Positions 7,486 through 26,904 of a DNA stretch of 31,885 bases are shown piece after piece (position 1 is the stretch's first letter; each line of letters begins with the position of its first letter). The notes below the pieces were generated by a model. That model did no database searches, was not told where the DNA came from, and saw only the letters and a program-made list of their open reading frames with translations. This DNA comes from a virus, in IMG/VR virus record IMGVR_UViG_3300048838_000670, positions 1-31,885 of that record; one strand, given 5' to 3'. The position numbers and the translations under genes are program-made.

Positions 7486-10017
7486 TTAGCCGCCGGCGTT
7501 GCTGTAGCCGGCCTCGGGGTTGACGGGCGCCACGCCCACGCCGGGCAGCCAGCACCAGAACTCGCGAGCAAACGGCGTGGACTTGCTCTCGATGAGGTCG
7601 ACGGTGGGCTGCTCCTGGCCGTCGAGGAACTTGACCTCGAAGGCGGCCAGCTCGCCGGGATCGGCGAACAGGTACCACCGCGTACCGCTCAGGCGGGGGC
7701 TGTGCACCGAACGAAGTCGGCCGCGCATGGTGTTGCGCTGGTTGTTGGCACCCTCGCTGCCCGGCACGAACTCCTGCATGGTGATGTCGTCGGCCGTGTC
7801 CGCCAGGTCCGTAGGCACCAGCAGCACGCGGGGATCCACCTCGATGTAGGCTTGGTCGGGCCCGAAGCCGCGGAGCTTCATCATCGCACGCCGGGCCTTG
7901 CGGACCTCGGCGTAGGACAGCGCGGCCGGCGAGCTGGCCAGATTGCCGCGGCCAGTGGCGAAGAACGCGCCGTTGCCATCGCTCATGGTCGGGCCCGCGC
8001 CGGAGTTGAGTCCCAGCAGGGCCACGATGAGCTGGTCGGGCAGGCGGGCGCCGCCACGGCCCATGATCTCGGTGAGCTGGTTGAAAGCGCCCAGGTCGTC
8101 GTTGCGAATCATCTCGTACGTCACGCTGATTGCGCGACCGTACTTCTCGACCTTGATCTTTTCGGCCCGCTCGTTCAGGGTCGTGTGGTCGGGGGTCCCA
8201 CCGGGCATGATGAGCTTGAGGTCGCCCGACTCGCTCAGGCGGATCGTGGTCGATTCCTTGAAGTCGGTCGCGGCGGTCCGTCGGGCGATGTTCCGCCAGA
8301 ACGGCTTGATCTCGTTGAACTGAGCGAGCAGGCTCTTCTTGGCCAGGTTGCTCAGCAGGTGGGGGAAGTCGCTCGACCCGTGGAAGGCCGCGGCCATGAA
8401 CTGGCCTTCGTTGAACGCGAACTTGTCGCGCGCCTGCTCGAAGCTGATGGCCTGAGCGTTGGCGATCGAGCCGATGGCCAGGTCCATAAGGCGGACGCTG
8501 CCAACACCGGCCTGGGCCTCGCGGATGGCCTTGCGGGCCAGGTCCTGCGAATCGAAGCCGATGGCCCGCGCGACCCGAGCGCCGGACTCGCCCTCGAGCT
8601 TGCTCTCGATGTCGGTCATCCGGTTGGCGAGCACCAGGGCGGCGTCGGCGTTCTTCCGCTCGCGGCCGCTGGCGCCGACCTGCACGCCGGGGATGTGGGA
8701 CTTGGGCTTGTCGGCCTCGGTCAGGTGCGCCAGCAGCTTGTCGGCGAACGCCTGGGGCGTGGTATCGGCATCGCCGATAGCCGCGTCCACGATGGCCTTG
8801 ACACCGTCGCGGTCCAGGTAGGGCTGGGCCCGGAGCTGGATGTCGCGGATGCGATCGGCGGCGTCCTTATTGGCCTGGGCGCGGATGGCCTTCTCATCGA
8901 TGGTGGTGGCGGTCGTGCCCTCGGGCTGCGCCGCCACGGTGCTGTTACCGTTGCTTCCGGGCATGGTTGCCCCTCCTGCGGCGACTGCCGCGGCTGTGCC
9001 CTCGGCCACCGGCTCGGCCGGTTGCACGCTGGCGTTGATGTGGTCGGCGGCCGGCTCGATGGCCGACACAGCGCCCACGGTGGTCCTGCCACCGGCGGAC
9101 TTCACCGGATGGCGTTCGTTTAGTTGGTCGATGAGCTCGTTGATGCTGCCCAAGGTCCCGTCGATCAGGCCGCGGCTCTGGGCCTCGGCGGCCATCCAGA
9201 CCTCGCCGGTGGCGTGCTGCCTGATGGCTTCGGCCGAGACGCCGCGGCCGCGGGCCAGGTCGTTGATGAACGTGTTGGCTAGCGCGTCAACGATCGACTG
9301 GTGCTGCTTGAGTTGGTCCTGGGTGATCGGCGTGCCACGGGTACCCGCGCCCTTCATGGGGCCGCTGGAGACCACGTAGGTTTTGATCCCGGCGTTCTCG
9401 AAGCGCCGGCTCTCATCGTCCATGACCATGAGCGTGCCGATGCTACCGACAATCGCATCACGATCGGCCGTGACCTTCTCCGCTTGCCCGGCCAAATACA
9501 GCGCAGCCGACGCGCCCATGCCGCTGATGTGCGCGTAGGTTGGCTTCGTCTGCCGGCCCTGGTAGATGATCGCTGACAGTTCCTCGAGGCCTTGAGCGGC
9601 GCCGCCGGGGCTGTCGACGTGGAACACGATCGACCCGACTTCGGGATCGGCCATCGCCTCGGCGTAATGCCGCGCGATCGTGTCCTGACCCACACCACTG
9701 GTCTTGGACGAGTTGTTGACCATGCTGCTGTGGCGTGCGATCACGCCACCGATGGGGATGCGGGCCACGCTGCCGTGAAGCGACCATGGCGCGGCCCGCG
9801 ATTCCTGGTCCCGTTGCGAGTATCGGGTTGCGGCTTGAACCTGGCCGAGATGGTCCACGCGGGCGTCGACGATCTCGGCGATCGCGTCGGCATCGAGCAG
9901 CTCACCGCGGGCGTGGCGGTCCACCAGGCTGACAAGCTGGTTGAGTGCGGTGGCTTCCATGCACCACGGGCGACCACATAGGGCCTCGATGAGCTTGCTG
10001 TCACGCTGCTTGGGCAT
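7486..10017 (-). CDS. Fused S49-type prohead protease / major capsid protein
   Basis: An 843-residue protein with three parts. Residues 85-300 are an S49 (SppA/lambda-C-like) protease with PIGGVI, FHVDSPGG, the nucleophile Ser170 in GMGASAALYLAG, VGSIGT and Lys222 in SSGPMKG. The 52-residue spacing equals that of the Ser/Lys dyad of Bacillus SppA as I recall it. Residues 310-480 are Ala/Gln/Lys-rich with predicted helices, as expected of a scaffold. Residues 500-843 are an HK97-fold capsid domain of the Mu-gpT/phage_capsid_4 type (GRAISVTYEMIRNDD, YIEVDPRVLLVP, STPFAREFWCWLPGVG). The start MPKQRDSK overlaps the portal gene by 17 nt. The protease probably cleaves the scaffold and releases itself during maturation. 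Fusions of this kind are known in other phages. Confidence 0.93.
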   Translation of the reverse strand: MPKQRDSKLIEALCGRPWCMEATALNQLVSLVDRHARGELLDADAIAEIVDARVDHLGQVQAATRYSQRDQESRAAPWSLHGSVARIPIGGVIARHSSMVNNSSKTSGVGQDTIARHYAEAMADPEVGSIVFHVDSPGGAAQGLEELSAIIYQGRQTKPTYAHISGMGASAALYLAGQAEKVTADRDAIVGSIGTLMVMDDESRRFENAGIKTYVVSSGPMKGAGTRGTPITQDQLKQHQSIVDALANTFINDLARGRGVSAEAIRQHATGEVWMAAEAQSRGLIDGTLGSINELIDQLNERHPVKSAGGRTTVGAVSAIEPAADHINASVQPAEPVAEGTAAAVAAGGATMPGSNGNSTVAAQPEGTTATTIDEKAIRAQANKDAADRIRDIQLRAQPYLDRDGVKAIVDAAIGDADTTPQAFADKLLAHLTEADKPKSHIPGVQVGASGRERKNADAALVLANRMTDIESKLEGESGARVARAIGFDSQDLARKAIREAQAGVGSVRLMDLAIGSIANAQAISFEQARDKFAFNEGQFMAAAFHGSSDFPHLLSNLAKKSLLAQFNEIKPFWRNIARRTAATDFKESTTIRLSESGDLKLIMPGGTPDHTTLNERAEKIKVEKYGRAISVTYEMIRNDDLGAFNQLTEIMGRGGARLPDQLIVALLGLNSGAGPTMSDGNGAFFATGRGNLASSPAALSYAEVRKARRAMMKLRGFGPDQAYIEVDPRVLLVPTDLADTADDITMQEFVPGSEGANNQRNTMRGRLRSVHSPRLSGTRWYLFADPGELAAFEVKFLDGQEQPTVDLIESKSTPFAREFWCWLPGVGVAPVNPEAGYSNAGG

Positions 10018-11641
10018 CGCTTGCGCCTCCTGCGTCGTCTGCCTTCTGGGCGGCGGCCAGGGCGGCCATCCGTGCGGCCCTCGACTCGTCGGTCTTCCGG
10101 TCGTTGTCGTCCTGGTCGCGGTCGTCGCGGTCCGTCTGGTCCTTGCGCCGTTCGCGGTTGTCCGGGTTTGCGCCGGCCTTGGGCCCCAGGCCCTCCCGCT
10201 CGCGCTCCTGCTGCACCAGCTTCTCCCAGCGGGCCATGTCCCGGGCCACCTGACGGGGGCTTCCGCCACGCTCGCCGATGACCTCCTGGGGGCTCCGCAC
10301 GCCGTTGTCGATGTCCTCGCCGGCGGCCATGGCCTCCTGGGCGGGGTTGACGTACTCCCAGCCGGGGAAGCGCGGGGCGCACTTGTAGAGCCGCTCGCGG
10401 TCCTCGTTGATGGCCAGCCGCTGCTCTGGGGTCAGCGTGATGCGTCCCACGGCGATGGCCCAATCGATGACGCGCCGGCGCCACTGCTCGGTGTGGTCGG
10501 TCCAGACCCACCGCTGACGCGGGCGCCAGCCCTTGCGGGCGCTCAGACCCTCGGCCCGCTGGCTGGCGAAGTTCACGCGCGACCAGTCGCCGCTCAGCTC
10601 GGCGGTCGGCACGCCGGTGCCCCGGGCCATCCGACGCTGGAGGGCGTGGCCGAGCTGGTCGACCCCGGGCGCCTGCTGGCTGCCCTGGGCCACCTGCATC
10701 GTGGTGCCCTCAGGCATGATGCCAACGATGCCGGGCTCCATCCGCATGACCGGGTCGCCCCTGCCATCGACCACGGCGGCGTTCTTGCCGTTCTTGGATC
10801 GAAGGATCGTGTTGAACACGTTGGACGGCGAGGTGAAGAAAACGCCCAGGCTCAGCACCACCTTCAGCAGGGTGGCGAAGTCGTCGAGGATGGTCTTGTT
10901 GACACGGGCCGTGTCGATGACGCTGGTGGCCTCGGGCAGGCCGCGGATCTGGTTGGGCTCGCCGCCGAAGAACGTGAGCAGCGTGTCGCGAGCGTCGTAC
11001 CGCTCGGTCTCCATGATCCGCATGCCCGGGTACCACCCGTCGTCGGGGTGCTCGACGTAGACCAGGTATCCCGAGACCCGGCCCTCGGAGTCGAACTCGA
11101 CGCCATGTCGGACCTGGCGGCCGTTGTAGACGCCCGTGAGGGTGACGTCGACCCGCTCGGCCTCGATCAGTTCGATGGCCGGCATGGCGGGGTAGCCCTT
11201 CCAAGGCTTGGCCATGGTGTGGTGCACCGCCACGTCGCCGCCGTCGAAGCACTCCCCGTAGAACTGCCGCTGGCTCTCGGAGATCGTGGTGTCGCGGTCC
11301 TTGTTCACCGCGCGCCCGGCCCACTCCATGAGCTTGTCGATCGCTTCGTTGAGCTCGGGCCAGTCGGTGTCGGCCTCGCTGCCGATGCCCAGACCCACGA
11401 CGTTGTTCAGGTGGGCCTCGCGGGCCGCCTTGATGTTGGGGTCGCTCTTGGCCAGGAACCGGGCCTTGGCGCGGATGCGCGGCAGGTTGGACGCCTCGAT
11501 GAGGGCATTGGGCCCGCGCGGGCTGGGCGCGAAGTCCGGGTCGGTGCGGTCGACGCGGCCGGCCTCCAGCCCGCCCCACGCGTTGGGCATGGCCACCTGC
11601 ACCACACGCTGCACCGGTCGAAGGAAGCTCAGGAAGCTCAT
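10001..11641 (-). CDS. Portal protein, lambda gpB type
   Basis: A 546-residue protein of the lambda-type portal family. Recognisable parts are the N-terminal LPRIRAKARFLAKSDPNIKAAREAHLNNVVG segment, the GECFDGGDVAVHH strand, ELIEAERVD, YLVYVEHPDD, and the crown-region GDWSRVNFASQRAEGLSARKGWRPRQRW. It forms the dodecameric DNA channel at one capsid vertex, the docking site of the terminase. The last 70 residues are highly charged (DRDDRDQDDNDRK) and lie over the start of the protease-capsid gene. It begins at ATG 11641, overlapping the gpW-like gene by 4 nt. Order (terminase, gpW, portal, protease, capsid) matches lambda. Confidence 0.95.
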   Translation of the reverse strand: MSFLSFLRPVQRVVQVAMPNAWGGLEAGRVDRTDPDFAPSPRGPNALIEASNLPRIRAKARFLAKSDPNIKAAREAHLNNVVGLGIGSEADTDWPELNEAIDKLMEWAGRAVNKDRDTTISESQRQFYGECFDGGDVAVHHTMAKPWKGYPAMPAIELIEAERVDVTLTGVYNGRQVRHGVEFDSEGRVSGYLVYVEHPDDGWYPGMRIMETERYDARDTLLTFFGGEPNQIRGLPEATSVIDTARVNKTILDDFATLLKVVLSLGVFFTSPSNVFNTILRSKNGKNAAVVDGRGDPVMRMEPGIVGIMPEGTTMQVAQGSQQAPGVDQLGHALQRRMARGTGVPTAELSGDWSRVNFASQRAEGLSARKGWRPRQRWVWTDHTEQWRRRVIDWAIAVGRITLTPEQRLAINEDRERLYKCAPRFPGWEYVNPAQEAMAAGEDIDNGVRSPQEVIGERGGSPRQVARDMARWEKLVQQEREREGLGPKAGANPDNRERRKDQTDRDDRDQDDNDRKTDESRAARMAALAAAQKADDAGGASDAQAA

Positions 11642-18772: not shown

Positions 18773-18776
18773 AGTT

Positions 18777-18849
18777 TGCGGGGTAGAGCAGTGGCCAGCT
18801 TGCCGGGCTCATATCCCGGAGGTCCCTGGTTCGAATCCAGGTCTCGCAA
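18777..18849 (+). tRNA. tRNA with CAU anticodon, initiator-like
   Basis: A complete 73-nt cloverleaf. The acceptor stem is 7 bp with U1-A72 and two G-U pairs; the D-arm is GAGC/GCTT; the anticodon stem is CCGGG/CCCGG with loop CTCATAT; the variable loop is 5 nt; the T-arm is CCTGG-TTCGAAT-CCAGG; the discriminator is A73. CCA is not encoded. Three consecutive G-C pairs at 29-31/39-41 and A11-U24 are hallmarks of initiator tRNA, and the weak U1-A72 pair is the kind of end that formylation tolerates. Elongator tRNA-Met or lysidine tRNA-Ile is less likely. Confidence 0.9.
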
Positions 18850-18850
18850 T

Positions 18851-19504: not shown

Positions 19505-20176
19505 ATGGCAACGACGACGAAAAAGAAGACTGCTTCCCCAACATCAGAGGCGATCGCGATCAAGCGGCCCAACATGGCCCAGGCCACCTTCGGCATCGTG
19601 GGCATCGCGCCCTACGTGCAGAACAAGTTTTCGAACAAGGCCAGAGAGCAGATTCGATTGAAGCAAGCCGCTGGCAGCACGTCGAACAAGTCGAAGAACC
19701 GCGAGGCCAAGGACTTCGATGCCGCCTACGAGGCAGCCATCCATTACTCAAAGGAGGGGTGGATCGGCATTCCAGCCACTGCGTTCCGTGCCGCGTGCAT
19801 CTCCGCTTGTCGCCTGGTGGACTACAAGATGACCGTCGCCAGGCTTAGCGTCTTCTTTGAGGCCGATGGCTTCGATCGAGACGACGGCACTCCCCTGGTT
19901 CGCATCACGAAGGGCGAGCCTCGGTGCGTCGAGCACATGGTTCGGGTCGGGCCGAGCAAGGCGCCTGACATCCGTTCGAGGCCCATGTGGGACCCCGGCT
20001 GGGAAGCCAACATCACTGTTCGGTTCGACGCCGACCAGTTCACGATCCAGGACGTGGCCAACCTGCTGTCCCGTGTCGGACAGCAGGTCGGGATCGGTGA
20101 GGGGCGACCCGACAGCAAGGGCACCGGCGGCGGTATGGGCTGGGGCATGTTCCTTCTGGCGGAGGGCGGCAAATGA
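19505..20176 (+). CDS. RAMP-like (Cas7-like?) phage protein next to the pentamer array
   Basis: A 223-residue protein. After a basic N-terminus come the strand ATFGIVGIAPYVQNKF, a helix, the segment GWIGIPATAFRAACISACRLVDYKMTVARLSVFFEADGFD, then a strand ITVRFDADQFTIQDVANLLSRVGQQVG. It ends with the glycine-rich VGIGEGRPDSKGTGGGMGWGMFLL. The alternation of strands and helices and the terminal G-x-G-x-x-x-(n)-G-x-G-x-hydrophobic stretch resemble the RAMP fold of Cas7/Cas5/Cas6 RNA-binding proteins. This is an inference from pattern. No catalytic site is evident. The start ATG 19505 follows GGAGA by 6 nt. It is coupled by ATGA to the next gene, and the pair abuts the 54-nt array. Confidence 0.75.
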   Translation: MATTTKKKTASPTSEAIAIKRPNMAQATFGIVGIAPYVQNKFSNKAREQIRLKQAAGSTSNKSKNREAKDFDAAYEAAIHYSKEGWIGIPATAFRAACISACRLVDYKMTVARLSVFFEADGFDRDDGTPLVRITKGEPRCVEHMVRVGPSKAPDIRSRPMWDPGWEANITVRFDADQFTIQDVANLLSRVGQQVGIGEGRPDSKGTGGGMGWGMFLLAEGGK

Positions 20177-20598
20177 GCCGGTTGCTGACGGTTGAGCTTG
20201 AGAAGGTCCGGTTACAGTCCAAGGACGGCATGCTCCGGCCCGAGAAGGTGGTCGAGTACGCGCGCAAGAACCCCAAGAGCGAGCTGCACAAACAGTTCGA
20301 CTGGGACAAGAGCGTGGCCGCCAACAAGTGGCTGCTGCACCAGGCCCGCGAGATCATCCGTGTGGCGGTCATGTACGTGGGCGACGGTCCCAAGTCGGTT
20401 CGGGCGTACGTCTCGCTCGACCAGGACCGGGCCAACGGTGGCGGGTACCGATCGACCACCGACGTGGCATCGAGCGACGCCCTGCGATCGGCCATGCTGG
20501 CAGAGGCGAAACGCGACGCCGATGCATTCGTGAGGAAATACCAGAGCTTGGAGGAATACGCGGAAGCGATCGCGGCGATCCGAAAGGTCGCCGGATAA
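20173..20598 (+). CDS. Conserved-type phage protein, partner of the RAMP-like protein
   Basis: A 141-residue protein: MSRLLTVELEKVRLQSKDGMLRPEKVVEYARKNPKSELHKQFDWD, a helix AANKWLLHQAREIIRVAV, a strand SVRAYVSLDQDRANGGGYRS, then a long helix ending AEAIAAIRKVAG. The pattern L-x-P-E-x-V-V-x-x-A, then H-x-x-F-x-W-D, then QAR-x-I-I, then YVSL-x-x-DR is one I associate with a recurring phage family of unknown role. It has no catalytic motif. It overlaps the RAMP-like gene by 4 nt, and its stop lies only 3 nt before the first array unit, which suggests the three form one functional cassette. Confidence 0.75.
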   Translation: MSRLLTVELEKVRLQSKDGMLRPEKVVEYARKNPKSELHKQFDWDKSVAANKWLLHQAREIIRVAVMYVGDGPKSVRAYVSLDQDRANGGGYRSTTDVASSDALRSAMLAEAKRDADAFVRKYQSLEEYAEAIAAIRKVAG

Positions 20599-20601
20599 CA
20601 C

Positions 20602-20826
20602 GGCAGGCGCGGCTTGGTCTGGCCAGGCGTGACTTGGTGAGGCAAGGCGTGGCATGGCAGGCACGACACGGCCCGGTGCGGAATCGTGAGGCAGGGCCGG
20701 GCATGGCACGGCAGGCATGGATAGGCAAGGCACGAATTGGCGGTACAAGGCCAGGATTGGCATGGCAGGCACGGCGAGGTCCGGCATGGCCCAGTAAGGC
20801 ACGTCACGCCAGGGCGCGGCAGGCAT
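20602..20826 (+). repeat. 54-nt periodic array of GGCNN pentamers (candidate non-coding RNA or DNA element)
   Basis: Four complete units start at 20602, 20656, 20710 and 20764, and a terminal stub at 20818. Each unit is GGCA followed by exactly ten pentamers. Thirty-two of the 40 pentamers begin with GG, most with GGC, and the last two positions vary. Unit boundaries are well conserved (GGCRY-GGCA-GGCRY), while the middle deviates most: GACTT at 20631, CGTGA at 20685, TACAA at 20744 and AGTAA at 20793. The lengths 4 and 5 rule out a conserved protein reading. It is the only large interruption in a 12-kb chain of overlapping genes. It is not a CRISPR array: there are no clean repeats and spacers. 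Confidence 0.9.
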
Positions 20827-20829
20827 CTT

Positions 20830-20878
20830 GCCCAACGACCGGGACACCGGTCATCGGGCTTTGGCGGTGAGATCCGCC
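20830..20878 (+). other. Two stem-loops closing the array region
   Basis: GACCGG-GACA-CCGGTC (20837-20852), extended by GCCC/GGGC around a small internal loop (20830-20859), is followed by GGCGG-TGAGAT-CCGCC (20863-20878). They start 3 nt after the last array pentamer and end before the GGGAG ribosome site of the next gene. They may define the 3-prime end of an array RNA or protect it. Confidence 0.5.
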
Positions 20879-20891
20879 TGGGAGCAGAAAA

Positions 20892-21203: not shown

Positions 21204-21547
21204 GCGTGCCGCGCCTCGAGTTCGAGATCCCATTCCCGCCGTCGCCGTTCGACGAGTGCCGGCGCTTGCCCAAGTACAAGCTCGAGCAGCGCTTCAAGGC
21301 CGAGGTCCGCGAGCGGTTCCGCGCTGCCGGCCCGATCACGTTCAAGCCCACGAGCGTGAGCCTGGTGGTGAGCCATCCGAGCCAGAACCGGCCCCGGGTC
21401 AACTTGATCGCCGCCCAGGCCAGCGTCGTAGGTGCGCTCAGCTCTTGCAACGCCATCCACCTGGTCTACCAGCTCGACCACGTCGAGGTCGTCCGCGGCG
21501 ACGCCGAACGCCCGGGCGTGGTCGTGATCCTGGAGGGCGCCCAATGA
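21200..21547 (+). CDS. RusA-like paralogue lacking the catalytic residues
   Basis: A 115-residue protein. It starts VPRLEFEIPFPPSPFDECRR, like the L-x-x-P-x-P-P-S-x-N start of RusA resolvases, and has the same strand-helix order as the next gene. Aligning RVNLIAAQASVVGAL with the DMDNLWKGTWDAL segment of RusA places Pro65 and Val67 where the two metal-binding aspartates belong and Ala71 at the lysine. Only an LDH aspartate remains near the third site. It may pair with the active RusA or bind junctions without cutting. The start is GTG 21200 in a GTGA overlap; the assignment is by my own alignment. Confidence 0.65.
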   Translation: MSVPRLEFEIPFPPSPFDECRRLPKYKLEQRFKAEVRERFRAAGPITFKPTSVSLVVSHPSQNRPRVNLIAAQASVVGALSSCNAIHLVYQLDHVEVVRGDAERPGVVVILEGAQ

Positions 21548-21921
21548 CCGGACCCAAGCGCCGCGTCTGCCTACTGCTGCGTTGGCCGCCCTCGGTCAAC
21601 CACTACTACGTCAACACCGGGCGTGGCCGCAAGGCCCTCTCTGACCCGGTCGTGGCGTTCCGCGCCCACGTCCAGGCATCGGTGCTCGAGCAGGAGCCCG
21701 GCTTCGACCCCCTCGAGGGCCCGCTCAACTTCCGGGCCACGCTCTGGCCGCCCGACCGGCGCCGGCGCGACATGGACAACCTGTGGAAGGGCACCTGGGA
21801 CGCGCTCAAGCACGCCCGGGTGATCCTGGACGACCAGCAGTTCAAGCGCAAGGCCGTGCTCTGGCACGACGAGCCGCGCAAGGGGGGCCAGATGTTGCTC
21901 CAGATTTCGGAGAGGGCATGA
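21544..21921 (+). CDS. rusA: RusA-family Holliday junction resolvase
   Basis: A 125-residue enzyme of typical RusA length. It begins LLRWPPSVNHYY and carries RRRDMDNLWKGTWDALKHARVILDDQQF. Asp76, Asp78, Lys82 and Asp97 reproduce the spacing of the RusA active site (D70, D72, K76, D91 in the Escherichia coli enzyme). As a dimer it resolves four-way junctions and branched replication intermediates, preparing linear DNA for packaging. It is coupled by ATGA on both sides and directly follows its inactive-looking paralogue. Confidence 0.92.
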   Translation: MTGPKRRVCLLLRWPPSVNHYYVNTGRGRKALSDPVVAFRAHVQASVLEQEPGFDPLEGPLNFRATLWPPDRRRRDMDNLWKGTWDALKHARVILDDQQFKRKAVLWHDEPRKGGQMLLQISERA

Positions 21922-22169: not shown

Positions 22170-22678
22170 TCGACGCAATCTCTCAACTCTGGGTCTCGAT
22201 CTTCGGCCTGACCGCGCTCCTCTGCATGGTCTCCAAGCCGATCCGCGCCCGCCGCGCCGGGGTGATCCTGGGCCTGATCGGCCAGCCAGGCTGGTACGCA
22301 CAGCTCGTGATCCATGAGCAATGGGGCATGCTGCCCGTGTTCGCCGGCTACACCGCGGTCTGGCTCATCGGGCTGTTCACGCTTTGGATTCGGCCGACCA
22401 ACGCTCCGCACACGCCAGAGACGATTCGGCCAGTCAACAACATCGAACGCGAGGTCATCGCGATCATCGGCACGAACACAATGTCAGGCCGAGAGATCCG
22501 TCAAGCCATGAAAGCTCGGGGGCATCACAGGACCAAGGCCGCTGCCTACTTGCTCTTGGCCAACATGGTTGATTCAGGCCTGCTACAGCACGACTGGGAA
22601 AACTGGGTAGAAAACGGCGAGACATACCGGCAAAAGGTCTTCAAACTGGCCCCGATTCGCCAGGCGGTGCCACGATGA
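22166..22678 (+). CDS. Membrane protein with C-terminal winged-helix domain
   Basis: A 170-residue protein. Residues 1-75 contain about three transmembrane helices (ISQLWVSIFGLTALLCMVS, RAGVILGLIGQPGWYAQLVI, MLPVFAGYTAVWLIGLFTLWI). Residues 90-165 look like a winged helix: EREVIAIIGTNTMSGREIRQAMKARGHHRTKAAAYLLLANMVDSGLLQHD, then a beta wing (ETYRQKVFKL). A DNA-binding domain tethered to the membrane is unusual for a phage early gene and could anchor replicating DNA. It overlaps the cytosine methyltransferase gene by ATGA. Confidence 0.7.
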   Translation: MIDAISQLWVSIFGLTALLCMVSKPIRARRAGVILGLIGQPGWYAQLVIHEQWGMLPVFAGYTAVWLIGLFTLWIRPTNAPHTPETIRPVNNIEREVIAIIGTNTMSGREIRQAMKARGHHRTKAAAYLLLANMVDSGLLQHDWENWVENGETYRQKVFKLAPIRQAVPR

Positions 22679-24351
22679 CAGGCCTGATCATCGACAACTT
22701 CGCGGGCGCGGGCGGGGCCTCGGTGGGGATCGAGGCGGCCATGGGCCGATCCGTCGACTACGCCATCAACCACGACCCCGAGGCGATCGAGACGCACGCG
22801 GTGAATCACCCGGGCACGACGCACCTGGTCGAGGACGTCTTCGCCGTGAATCCCGCCGAGCTGTGCGCGGGGCGGGCGGTGGACCTGGCTTGGTTTAGCC
22901 CGGACTGCACGCACCACAGCCGGGCCAAGGGCGGGCGGCCGCGCGAGAACAAGCGGCGCGGGCTGGCGTGGGTGGTGATCCGGTGGGCGGCGACGGTCCG
23001 GCCGGCGGTGATCATGCTCGAGAACGTGAGCGAGTTCGCCGAGTGGGGGCCGCTGGACGCCGAGGGCCGGCCGTGCCCAAAACGCAAGGGCCAGACGTTC
23101 CGGTCGTGGACCGGGCGGCTCCGCGAGCTGGGCTACGACGTGCAGTGGCGCGAGCTGGTGGCGGCCGACTACGGCACGCCCACGATCCGCAAGCGGCTGT
23201 TCCTGGTGGCGCGGTGCGACGGCAAGCCCATCGTGTGGCCCGAGCCGACCCACGCGCCGCGTGAGAAGGCCGGGGCGCTGGGGCTCAAGCCGTGGCGGGC
23301 GGCGGCCGAGTGCATCGACTGGAGCCTGCCGTGCCCGTCGATCTTCCTGACGCCCGAGGAGGCCAAGGCGTGGGGCAAGGCCCACGGCGTGCCGACGCCC
23401 AAGCGGCCGCTGGCCGAGGCGACGATGGCACGCATCGCGAGGGGCGTGAAGCGGTATGTGCTCGACGGCGATCCTTTCGTGGTGCTGTGCAACCACGGCG
23501 GGTCCGAGTTCCGGGGCCAGGCGGTCGGCGATCCGATGCAGACGATCACGGCCGCGCACGATGCGCGGGGTGTCGTGCGCCCGTTCGTGACGAAGTTTCG
23601 TACGGGTTCGACGGGCCACTCGGCCGAGGATCCGCTGCACACAATCACGGCCAACAGCTTTGTGAAGCGGCCGGGCGGCGCGGTCCCGCTTGGAATCGTG
23701 GCGCCGAGCCTCGTGCAGACCGGCTACGGCGAGCGTGAGGGCCAGGCCCCGCGTTCCCTGGACATCGGCCGGCCGCTGGGTGTGGTGCCCGCGGGCGGGT
23801 GCAAGCACGCCCTGGTCGCGGCGTTCCTGGCCAAGCACTTCGGCGGGGTCGTGGGCCAGGGCGTCGACCGCCCCGCGTCTACGGTGACGGCGACCGACCA
23901 CCACGCGCTGGTGGCGGCAAGCCTGACGTACGCCCAGCAGGGCGGCCGCAACCGCGACGCGCGGGAGCCGATCCACACGATCACCGCCAGCGGCAAGGAC
24001 CAGAACTGCGCCGTCGCCGCCTTCCTGACCAAGTACCACGGCACCGGCGGGCAGCACGCGGCCTGCGGCGACCCGATGCACTGCGTGACGTGCGCCGACC
24101 GGATGGCCCTGGTGACGGTGGCCGGCCAGGTCTACGCCATCGCTGATCTGTGCATGCGCATGCTCCAGCCCCACGAGCTGCTGGCGGCCCAGTTCGGGCG
24201 CTTCGCCGCGGGCTACCGGCTGATCGGCACGAAGCGGCGGCAGGTGGCGGGGATCGGCAACTCGGTGTGTCCCGAGGTCGCCGAGGCGCTGGTGCGGGCG
24301 AACGTGCCGGCGCGGGCGCCGCGGCGGTCCAGAAAGGCGGTGGCGGCGTGA
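22675..24351 (+). CDS. C5-cytosine DNA methyltransferase
   Basis: A 558-residue enzyme. Motif I is DNFAGAGGAS (residues 7-16), motif IV is SPDCTHHS with catalytic Cys78 (DC in place of the usual PC, a variant seen in phage enzymes), motif VI is ENV (116-118), motif VIII is PTIRKRLFLVA, and motif X is GNSVCPEVAEALVRAN near the end. The region between VIII and IX is long and contains five repeats of the type DP-x-x-T-I-T-A, the likely target-recognition domain. It should methylate phage DNA to evade host restriction. There is no partner nuclease, so it is an orphan modifier. A GTGA overlap joins it to the next gene. Confidence 0.93.
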   Translation: MTGLIIDNFAGAGGASVGIEAAMGRSVDYAINHDPEAIETHAVNHPGTTHLVEDVFAVNPAELCAGRAVDLAWFSPDCTHHSRAKGGRPRENKRRGLAWVVIRWAATVRPAVIMLENVSEFAEWGPLDAEGRPCPKRKGQTFRSWTGRLRELGYDVQWRELVAADYGTPTIRKRLFLVARCDGKPIVWPEPTHAPREKAGALGLKPWRAAAECIDWSLPCPSIFLTPEEAKAWGKAHGVPTPKRPLAEATMARIARGVKRYVLDGDPFVVLCNHGGSEFRGQAVGDPMQTITAAHDARGVVRPFVTKFRTGSTGHSAEDPLHTITANSFVKRPGGAVPLGIVAPSLVQTGYGEREGQAPRSLDIGRPLGVVPAGGCKHALVAAFLAKHFGGVVGQGVDRPASTVTATDHHALVAASLTYAQQGGRNRDAREPIHTITASGKDQNCAVAAFLTKYHGTGGQHAACGDPMHCVTCADRMALVTVAGQVYAIADLCMRMLQPHELLAAQFGRFAAGYRLIGTKRRQVAGIGNSVCPEVAEALVRANVPARAPRRSRKAVAA

Positions 24352-24863
24352 CGTTCAAGGCCAAACCCATCCCCCGACCGCAACCTGTAAGCCAGCCTGA
24401 GCAGTTGCCACCCGAGACACCCGAGCCCGTGGCCTTCATCGAAGTCCAAGGCCCGGTGGCCAACCGCGGCGTGTTGACTCCTGAGGTCCTTCTCACGCTC
24501 GTGCTGGACTTCTACGGCGTCTCGGATGCAATATTCCGAGGTCGTGGCCGCCACAGGGACACGGTGAAGGCTCGCCAGGCGTTCGTCTGGCTCGCTCGGC
24601 AGCACCTGAAGCACTCGTACCCCGAGCTGGCCATCATTGCGAGCAGGCCCAACCACTCCAGCCTCGTCACGCAGATGCGTCGTGTCGAGCGTCGGATGAT
24701 CGAAGAGCCGGATTTCCGCGACGAGCTGCTTGAGCTCAACGCCTGGGTCATTGCCAATAAACCAGGGCGCAAGCCGCCAGCGCCGGAGGTCACGCAGCAC
24801 CAGCCCGCCGCGCCGTACCCGATCGAGGGCGATCCGATCCCGCTGGAAGGCGGTGAGTCATGA
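24348..24863 (+). CDS. DnaA domain-IV-like protein without the ATPase
   Basis: A 171-residue protein. Residues 45-118 match the DNA-binding domain IV of DnaA: LLTLVLDFYGVSDAIFRGRGRHRDTVKARQAFVWLARQHLK, then the recognition-helix signature ELAIIASRPNHSSLVTQMRRV. N- and C-terminal parts are proline-rich and presumably disordered. There is no Walker motif, so it can bind DnaA-box-like DNA but cannot form the ATP-driven filament. Located 1 kb before the initiator gene and its iterons, it could mark the phage origin, recruit host DnaB, or titrate host DnaA sites. It starts at GTG 24348. Confidence 0.8.
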   Translation: MTFKAKPIPRPQPVSQPEQLPPETPEPVAFIEVQGPVANRGVLTPEVLLTLVLDFYGVSDAIFRGRGRHRDTVKARQAFVWLARQHLKHSYPELAIIASRPNHSSLVTQMRRVERRMIEEPDFRDELLELNAWVIANKPGRKPPAPEVTQHQPAAPYPIEGDPIPLEGGES

Positions 24864-25804
24864 CGGCGGTGGACTGCGCGATTCGGGCGGTGGCGCCATG
24901 GTTCGGTGCGAAGCGCCGCATGGCAGAGATGATCGTCGCCGAGTTGGGCGAGCATGACAGCTACGTCGAGCCGTTTTGCGGCTCCTGCGCCGTGCTGCTC
25001 GGCAAACAACAGGTCAGCTTCGAGACCGTGAACGACCTCCACGGTGACCTGACCCACCTGCTCCGGTGCCTCCAGGATGAGGCCGTGGCGCTCTGGCTGT
25101 ACGGACAGACCGCACGGACGTGCATGGCCGAGGGCTTGCTGAAGGACGCCCACGAGCTGCTCGGCGGATCTCCGCCGCCAGACATGGGCGCTCCGGTCGA
25201 CCGCCACCGCGCGTACGCCTATCTGATCCAGAGCTGGATGATGCGGTCCGGCGTGTCCGGAACCAAACTCGGAGAGGTCTCAGGGGTCAGCTCGTGCATC
25301 GCAACGAGGTTCACCACCGGCGGAGGATCCCCAACCGTTCGTTGGACCTCGATGGTCGAGAGCATTCCCGCGTGGCACCTTCGGCTCCGGAGCGTCGTGG
25401 TGCTCCGCCGAGATGCTTTCGCGCTCATCGAGCAGATTGACGACAAGTCTGGCGTGGTGATCTACCTAGACCCGCCATATCTGGCGGGATCTCGCACCGG
25501 ACTGGACCGCGCCAGCGGAAAGGCGGCCTACCTCCACGAGTTCGAGGCCGGCGGCGTCGGGATCTTCGGCCACGTGGACGACCACACCCGCCTGGCCGAC
25601 GCCCTGGGCCGCTTCAAGCGGGCCCGGGTCGTCGTCAGCTACTACGCCCACCCCCGCCTGGCGGAGCTCTACCCGGGCTGGACCGTGCGCGACTGCACCC
25701 AGAACAAGAACATGAGCAACTTCACTGGCCGCGGCGAGCGCTACTCCAAGTCGCCCGAGGTTCTGTTGATCAACGGGCCCAGCTACACCGGCGGTGGCTC
25801 ATGA
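24860..25804 (+). CDS. Dam-type N6-adenine DNA methyltransferase
   Basis: A 314-residue class D12 enzyme. Motifs in order are APWFGAKRRMA (residues 12-22; the SAM-site helix), VEPFCGSCAVL (36-46) and LDPPYLAG (203-210; catalytic DPPY). Homologues methylate adenine, commonly in GATC; the target here is unknown. Together with the cytosine methyltransferase it gives the phage two modifications. Coupled by ATGA to both neighbours. The central region (residues 130-165, SGVSGTKLGEVSGVSSCIATRF) differs from the enteric Dam and probably sets specificity. Confidence 0.92.
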   Translation: MTAVDCAIRAVAPWFGAKRRMAEMIVAELGEHDSYVEPFCGSCAVLLGKQQVSFETVNDLHGDLTHLLRCLQDEAVALWLYGQTARTCMAEGLLKDAHELLGGSPPPDMGAPVDRHRAYAYLIQSWMMRSGVSGTKLGEVSGVSSCIATRFTTGGGSPTVRWTSMVESIPAWHLRLRSVVVLRRDAFALIEQIDDKSGVVIYLDPPYLAGSRTGLDRASGKAAYLHEFEAGGVGIFGHVDDHTRLADALGRFKRARVVVSYYAHPRLAELYPGWTVRDCTQNKNMSNFTGRGERYSKSPEVLLINGPSYTGGGS

Positions 25805-26904
25805 GTAAGGCCCCCGGCATCTTCATCCAGCTCAAGACCACGATCATCCACGATGACAAGCTCGCCGCGGCGGGCCCTGAGGCCACGTGCCTGTACGTCA
25901 AGGGCCTCTGCTGGGCGAAGGAACACCTGACCGATGGCGAGGTCCGGCGTGGCGCCCTGGCCATCCTGGGGGCCGGCATCAGCGACCCAGAGGCCGCCGC
26001 GCAGCGCCTCGTGGACAACCACCTGTGGACCGTGACCGAGAACGGCTGGACGGTCGGCTCCGAGCGGTGGGCCAGGCACCAGGAAACCAAGGCCCAGGTC
26101 GACGCCCGCCGAGAGGCCGACCGAGAGCGCAAGAAGGCCGGCAAGAAGGTCACAAAGAAGGTCGCGAAGACCACGAAACCGAAGGCGTCAGGAATCCGCG
26201 AGGATTCCGGGCGGAATCCGAGCGGAAGCAAACCGGAATCCGCGACGAGTCGGGACGGATTCCAGCATACAGACACATATCCAGAGACAGAGACAGAGAC
26301 AGAATCACCACCACCACGCGCGAGCAAACGCGAACCCGAACCGGCTGCGCCGGGTGGTGGTGGTGGTGAGTGCGCTGGATTCGAGGGGGATCTGGACACG
26401 GCTGTCGCCGCCCTGACGGCGCTCCGCGTGAACCGGGCCACGTCCCACGCCCGGCAGGCGGGCAGCGAGCGGGCGGTGCTCTACGCCATCGAGCGGGCCC
26501 GCGAGCCCGGCGTGAAGAACCGGGCCGCCATGGCGGTCCAGCTCATCCGCGACGGCGAGAAGCCGCCGGCGGGCTGGCGATCGCGGGGCGAGATCGATGC
26601 CGCCAGCGCCGAGCGCAACCGCCAGGCCGATCGCGATCAGGCCGTCGATCTGGCACAGCGGAAGCGCGAGTACGAACGCAACGTCGCCGAGATCGCGTTG
26701 ATCAAGGCCCACCAGGACATCGCCATGCAAGCCGCCGAGCAGGTCGCCAAGGGCGACAGCTTCTCGGCCAGGACGCTCAGATCCAGGCCCAAGCGTGATT
26801 GGGTGCTCAACCCGCTCTGCCGTGCCGAGGTCCTGGACGCGATCGAGAAAGAAACCGGAGACACCGTCGAGGCGCTGCTGGCCAGCGGGAGGGAATCAGC
26901 GTGA
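25801..26904 (+). CDS. Replication initiator-like protein (lambda O/DnaD type) containing the origin
   Basis: A 367-residue protein. Residues 1-100 look like a winged-helix DNA-binding domain (FIQLKTTIIHDDKLAAAGPEATCLYVKGLCWAKEHLTDGEV, LVDNHLWTVTENGWTV). Residues 105-195 are disordered and basic, then Thr/Glu- and Gly-rich; residues 195-367 are helical and may recruit the host helicase. In size and layout it resembles lambda O and DnaD-type phage initiators. The disordered middle is encoded by 11-bp-spaced iterons and a 13-bp inverted repeat, exactly as lambda carries ori inside O. Overlaps are ATGA upstream and GTGA downstream. Confidence 0.78.
   Translation: MSKAPGIFIQLKTTIIHDDKLAAAGPEATCLYVKGLCWAKEHLTDGEVRRGALAILGAGISDPEAAAQRLVDNHLWTVTENGWTVGSERWARHQETKAQVDARREADRERKKAGKKVTKKVAKTTKPKASGIREDSGRNPSGSKPESATSRDGFQHTDTYPETETETESPPPRASKREPEPAAPGGGGGECAGFEGDLDTAVAALTALRVNRATSHARQAGSERAVLYAIERAREPGVKNRAAMAVQLIRDGEKPPAGWRSRGEIDAASAERNRQADRDQAVDLAQRKREYERNVAEIALIKAHQDIAMQAAEQVAKGDSFSARTLRSRPKRDWVLNPLCRAEVLDAIEKETGDTVEALLASGRESA
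26190..26369 (+). other. Probable replication origin inside the initiator gene
   Basis: Seven consecutive 11-bp units run from 26190 to 26266. Five contain the self-complementary core GGAWTCC, at 26191, 26202, 26213, 26235 and 26257; those at 26224 and 26246 are degenerate. One unit per helical turn is ideal for cooperative initiator binding. A less G+C-rich stretch with three AGAGAC repeats (26283-26300) follows, then a perfect 13-bp inverted repeat, TCACCACCACCAC at 26305-26317 and its complement at 26357-26369. Because 11 is not a multiple of 3, the repeat is kept at DNA level. Confidence 0.75.

Follow-up and report, generated by a model that had tools for sequence, protein, structure and literature searches.

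VIPR (Viral Interference Programmable Repeat) was described in a preprint of April 2026 (PMC13142463), which sets out a phage RAMP protein named Vipr, a vap gene, and vrRNAs in which GGY and NN alternate. Each vrRNA consists of 9-16 YNNGG repeats, and the NN dinucleotides read DNA with one base skipped. According to the preprint, RNA expression and formation of a ribonucleoprotein (RNP) were shown for the VIPR of SUSP1 and of P. fulva, the one-base-skip rule and repression were shown for SUSP1, and RNA sequencing confirmed only the hammerhead and single-vrRNA architectures (PMC13142463). The window considered here is the whole stretch of 31,885 nt given by IMG/VR record IMGVR_UViG_3300048838_000670; genes for terminase, portal and head protease mark it as the genome of a phage. 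It contains, at 20602-20826, an array of GGYNN pentamers behind two overlapping genes, and these three parts very probably form a VIPR locus (vipr, vap and vrRNA array). An initial annotation, made from the letters alone, had proposed the array as a candidate undescribed element, a status it loses with the publication of VIPR in 2026 (PMC13142463); judged from its sequence, the locus is of a known kind but lacks both the tail and the vap1 of type II.

The array is 225 nt long and consists of four 54-nt units, starting at 20602, 20656, 20710 and 20764, each made of GGCA plus ten GGYNN pentamers, and of a terminal stub. It starts 3 nt past the stop of the 141-aa gene, inside the gap 20599-20891. 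Exact GGY is found at 33 of the 44 pentamer starts and the remaining 11 are substitutions, with zero indels; the register slips solely at GGCA, and the most variable pentamers are the interior ones of each unit. For lags of 5, 54 and 108 nt the autocorrelation is 0.51, 0.58 and 0.65 (z 6.9, 8.1 and 8.3), 7 to 8 standard deviations above 2000 shuffles that preserve dinucleotides, in which it is about 0.30. The layout, the uninterrupted register, the drift of the middle pentamers and the position directly behind a RAMP-like gene and its partner had all been read correctly in the initial annotation. The features of the locus are as follows.

19505..20176, plus strand: vipr homologue, 223 aa, RAMP/Cas7-like; predicted guide-RNA coat, one subunit per pentamer.
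20173..20598, plus strand: vap (VIPR accessory) candidate, 141 aa, with a 4-nt overlap with vipr.
20602..20655, plus strand: guide unit 1, NN = GC TT CT CA GT TT GA AA GT AT; predicted target with one-base skip, GCNTTNCTNCANGTNTTNGANAANGTNAT.
20656..20709, plus strand: guide unit 2, NN = AC AC CC GC AT GA AG CG AT AC; predicted target with one-base skip, ACNACNCCNGCNATNGANAGNCGNATNAC.
20710..20763, plus strand: guide unit 3, NN = AT TA AA AC TT GG AA CA TT AT; predicted target with one-base skip, ATNTANAANACNTTNGGNAANCANTTNAT.
20764..20817, plus strand: guide unit 4, NN = AC GA CC AT CC AA AC AC AG GC; predicted target with one-base skip, ACNGANCCNATNCCNAANACNACNAGNGC.
20818..20826, plus strand: stub, terminal punctuation GGCAGGCAT closing the array, with the same GGCA-GGCRN junction as between units.
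20818-20832 and 20837-20852, plus strand: two predicted hairpins, at the array end and just behind it.

The 223-aa protein matches phrog_4652 in PHROG (E 5.6e-17), and its AF2 model, built from 85 sequences, has a pLDDT of 88. When this model is compared with the PDB by Foldseek, the top 50 matches are almost all RAMPs of the Csm3, Cmr4 and type VII Cas7-like kinds (best E 3.6e-5). The family profile retrieves one significant PDB sequence, 36pp, deposited as 'SUSP1 Vipr protein' (E 6.7e-5), and an hhalign comparison of the family with SUSP1 Vipr gives a probability of 88.6 (E 2.7e-6). The protein also bears a C-terminal Gly-rich loop (GIGEGRPDSK-GMGWG). On the predicted structure, the RAMP fold first suspected from the letters is confirmed, and the profile matches place the protein in the Vipr lineage. 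The 141-aa protein matches phrog_15946 (E 4.1e-18), is modelled by AF2 with a pLDDT of 95, and finds forkhead DNA-binding domains as its best, weak Foldseek matches (E 0.31); it may be a winged-helix DNA binder. A vap homologue occurs in 93 of 107 loci. PADLOC, Pfam and PHROG assign no function to the vipr/vap pair. In Mycobacterium phage Gorge, gene 54 (L110, 2833-4050) holds vipr and vap as one 1218-nt frame, an apparent fusion or frameshift.

Homologous loci, numbered with an L, were taken from viral contigs and genomes, and include both IMG/VR records and named phages. A GGYNN array adjoins vipr in 83 of 96 of these loci, either upstream, directly behind vipr or behind vap, and every such array lies on the vipr strand (0 on the opposite strand). 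Most of the other 13 loci have arrays with a drifted triplet, and most of these retain the GCAGG junction. Close relatives of Vipr (50-56% identity) are found beside such arrays, namely CGCNN in L009 (5054-5400), GACNN in L005 (1380-1585) and GGANN in L069 (4615-5500), the first and the last of which retain the GCAGG punctuation. This suggests that Vipr can be re-tuned to another triplet. The array detector used a threshold of 24, and no locus shuffled by an order-1 Markov model scored more than 12; 110 viral loci unrelated to these, 0.96 Mb in total, yielded no array. The detector, having been fixed before the SUSP1 genome was retrieved, detected three tracts flanking SUSP1 vipr. Conversely, when the array pattern was sought in 144 Bradyrhizobium genomes, one variable array came up, beside vipr and vap, along with two simple repeats. 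Arrays and gene pair proved linked in both directions, the only variable array in the Bradyrhizobium set being the one that adjoins vipr. One locus, L002 (a contig of 44,390 bp), is identical to the window across 8.7 kb including the array, and is probably the same virus in a more complete form.

Across relatives, 117 non-redundant arrays with 540 one-base slips reveal a common grammar. GGY opens 93% of the pentamers that follow a slip, compared with about 75% of those within units, where NN entropy is 1.9-2.0 bits. Of 567 distances between successive GCAGGY motifs, 432 equal 4 modulo 5, 54 nt being the commonest spacing, followed by 49, 44 and 59 nt. The unit of the window therefore has the commonest size in the clade, and its ten pentamers lie within the family mode of 8-11, unit lengths varying by whole pentamers. 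Eight Mycobacterium Cheoctovirus phages differ by the presence or absence of whole units, and the units they share differ at NN and keep GGC and GGCA; the comparison of close relatives that had been proposed thus shows units changing as wholes in a constant register, and not the random indels that would have spoken against it.

Does each unit correspond to one guide? A VIPR-like locus in which the array is one long guide, or a series of overlapping guides running across the GGCA slips, is an unlikely but serious alternative. Uninterrupted arrays of 17 and 26 pentamers flank vipr in one relative (L007, 692-776 and 1620-1749), with no GGCA slip, and the pentamers adjacent to slips still bear NN, with a purine bias. 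The slip sequence itself is nevertheless fixed (GGCA in 425 and CGCA in 49, together 474 of 540), and the gain and loss of whole units mark the unit as the functional piece. With separate guides as the preferred reading, one may go further and propose that the clade has a distinct grammar, in which the lack of one base (a GGCA among five-base steps) takes the place of the tail or the CRISPR repeat as the boundary between RNPs, and in which the Vipr lineage re-tunes the triplet (GGC, CGC, GAC, GGA) with the GCAGG punctuation mostly kept. This proposal is tentative, and on balance more doubted than held.

The NN letters carry information on how they would be read. The two letters of a pair are dependent (p 2e-25), with a genomic signature and depletion of TA, whereas the second N of a pentamer shows no dependence on the first N of the one that follows (p 0.99). 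The two N should therefore be neighbours in the target and consecutive pairs should not, which disfavours a zero skip. Pooled NN fit codon positions 1-2, roughly 70% of them in sense and 30% in antisense; the other phases do not fit. Models with one shared codon phase per guide, as expected of a one-base skip, beat rotating-phase models by about 200 log units, part of which reflects the intrinsic purine bias, and simulations recover the right period. These statistics support the published one-base-skip rule, in the manner of backing and not of proof.

How would such a locus operate? On the reading preferred here, a single transcript would carry vipr, vap and the array, read in the same sense as vipr, and the array would yield guide RNAs some ten GGYNN steps long. 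Each subunit of Vipr, as a Cas7-like RAMP, would hold one pentamer, with GGY gripped by the protein and NN shown to the target; ten NN pairs would read 20 bases of a DNA target 29 nt long and skip one base, in most cases that of the codon wobble position, behind each pair. The RNP would then bind genes of rival phages or prophages and block their transcription, and the vap product probably helps DNA binding. The boundary between guides would be the slip of one base at GGCA, where the five-base rhythm is interrupted, and not a structured tail, with processing presumably occurring at GGCA. The initial annotation had suggested a structured or guide-like RNA bound by the upstream proteins; the guide-like part is borne out by the RAMP fold, the solved Vipr homologue and the linkage of array and genes, and the structured part is not, the array RNA folding no better than shuffles (z -0.59). 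A scan for promoters and terminators found none on the sense strand, and a scan with Rfam matched solely a tRNA. The segment 20818-20900, with the two predicted hairpins, folds with a z of -2.2 relative to shuffles, and the hairpins at 20818-20852 are a possible 3' end or terminator, lacking a T-run.

Several results weigh against the assignment to VIPR, or temper it. Sequence similarity to SUSP1 Vipr is confined to the C-terminal third of the protein, the vap family of the window is unrelated to SUSP1 vap1 (hhalign probability 0.2), and a SUSP1-like tail is absent from the arrays of the clade, whose units abut directly at GGCA. The imperfect GGY at 11 of the 44 positions means that some pentamers of the window array may be inert. 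When letter bias is left free, the margin of the one-base skip over other skips falls to 30-40 units, about 10 of them above shuffled guides. The target searches add to these points: none of the window guides, scanned in IMG/VR by their 16 central bases, gave a convincing natural target, a mycobacteriophage guide gave 7 matches, about the chance number, and guides from Bradyrhizobium, searched in 147 genomes, gave 3 matches versus 1 in the control, and 1 versus 0.

The best IMG/VR extensions reached 19/20 for guide 1, 18/20 for guides 2 and 4, and 20/20 three times for the AT-rich guide 3; two of these three are the same sequence, all lie in contigs of 29-34% GC, and two are out of codon phase. 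These matches were judged to be due to chance and rejected as real targets. A comparison of all guides with all collected loci gave no excess over shuffled guides at any skip, and the peptide readings of one mycobacteriophage guide found nothing in phages. A separate observation concerns guide 1 of locus L088 (at 6685), which reads [DE][IM]V[NK]L[FL]SRVG, a conserved motif of Vipr. Its agreement is 18/20 with two vipr genes and at least 15/20 with about 50, at one conserved, codon-aligned site (D-I/V-x-N-L-x-S-R-V-G), and its own vipr gene fits less well than other vipr genes; an exact scan of IMG/VR found none. Targeting of one VIPR by another is thus a possibility, kept as a hint because outliers of z at least 4 appear at similar rates under wrong skips when guides are compared with vipr genes.

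A DNA-level element, in which the upstream proteins bind the GGYNN repeat as DNA (a partition-like site, an origin or a packaging signal), is very improbable. A winged-helix protein encoded next to the array would suit it, as would a five-base period, which is compatible with periodic contact. The upstream protein is nevertheless predicted to be a Cas7-like, RNA-binding RAMP, kin of a protein shown to bind such RNAs in the preprint (PMC13142463); arrays restricted to the vipr strand are not expected of a DNA site, which should be indifferent to strand; and NN are hypervariable, at about 2 bits, with a gene-like dinucleotide signature. The recombination hotspot, packaging signal and DNA scaffold offered as alternatives in the initial annotation find no support. 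Least credible of all is a sequence that has no function, be it a plain tandem repeat in decay or one that codes for repeats. The 54 nt of the unit are divisible by three, and GC-rich phages often contain G-rich repeats, but the units of relatives measure 44, 49, 54, 59 and 64 nt, most of them not multiples of three, which disfavours coding repeats, the register is kept while NN are randomised, the opposite of slippage repeats, the tie between array and vipr extends across many bacterial phyla, and no variable array without vipr was seen in the 144 Bradyrhizobium genomes.

Other genes of the window may be mentioned briefly. A tRNA-Met (CAT) lies upstream of vipr, at 18776-18850. Downstream of the VIPR locus are two DNA methyltransferase genes (22675-24351 and 24860-25804, of the C-5 cytosine and phrog_56 types), near which stand RusA (21256-21921) and a replication initiator (25801-26904). 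A 514-aa gene at 27268-28812 matches the PADLOC candidate defence families PDC-M41B and PDC-M30B, and phrog_2045, and the minus strand at 7486-10269 encodes a 927-aa fusion of head maturation protease and major head protein.

VIPR, a recently described RNA-guided system proposed as a CRISPR ancestor, is hereby placed in a large clade of metagenomic phages and of laboratory phages that are simple to grow. Its members include the Mycobacterium Cheoctovirus phages Saal, Quico and Donkeykong, and Gordonia phages ODay and UmaThurman, so that Mycobacterium smegmatis offers a direct test of the array grammar, of the skip code and of what the one-base slip does. The NN composition provides statistical support for a non-contiguous code that depends on no target, in a clade that, going by the text of the preprint (PMC13142463), differs from the one tested experimentally.

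Compared with class 1 CRISPR-Cas, the locus shares with Csm3/Cas7 a predicted fold and a Gly-rich loop, and presumably an oligomeric, RNA-coating role. It differs from class 1 systems by a pentamer instead of a six-base period and by a sequence identity of about 10%; no cas families were found among the neighbouring window genes scanned, which belong to phage families instead, and the array has no contiguous constant repeat. Compared with type II VIPR, known from Escherichia phage SUSP1 and a Pseudomonas fulva prophage, it differs from SUSP1 by its GGCA-punctuated, head-to-tail units without an invariant 3' tail, by its accessory protein, by the use of mostly GGC and not GGT, and by its clade, around PHROG 4652. 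What the preprint calls 'staggered arrays with overlapping vrRNAs' (PMC13142463, fig. S18), an architecture outside those confirmed there by RNA sequencing, is possibly the counterpart of the arrays punctuated by slips. Type II VIPR is like the window locus in having a phage RAMP protein, a small adjacent accessory gene, flanking GGY/NN tracts and a homologous Vipr (36pp), and the definition of VIPR itself agrees with the units of ten pentamers, the hypervariable NN, the intergenic array flanking vipr and the phage carrier observed here.
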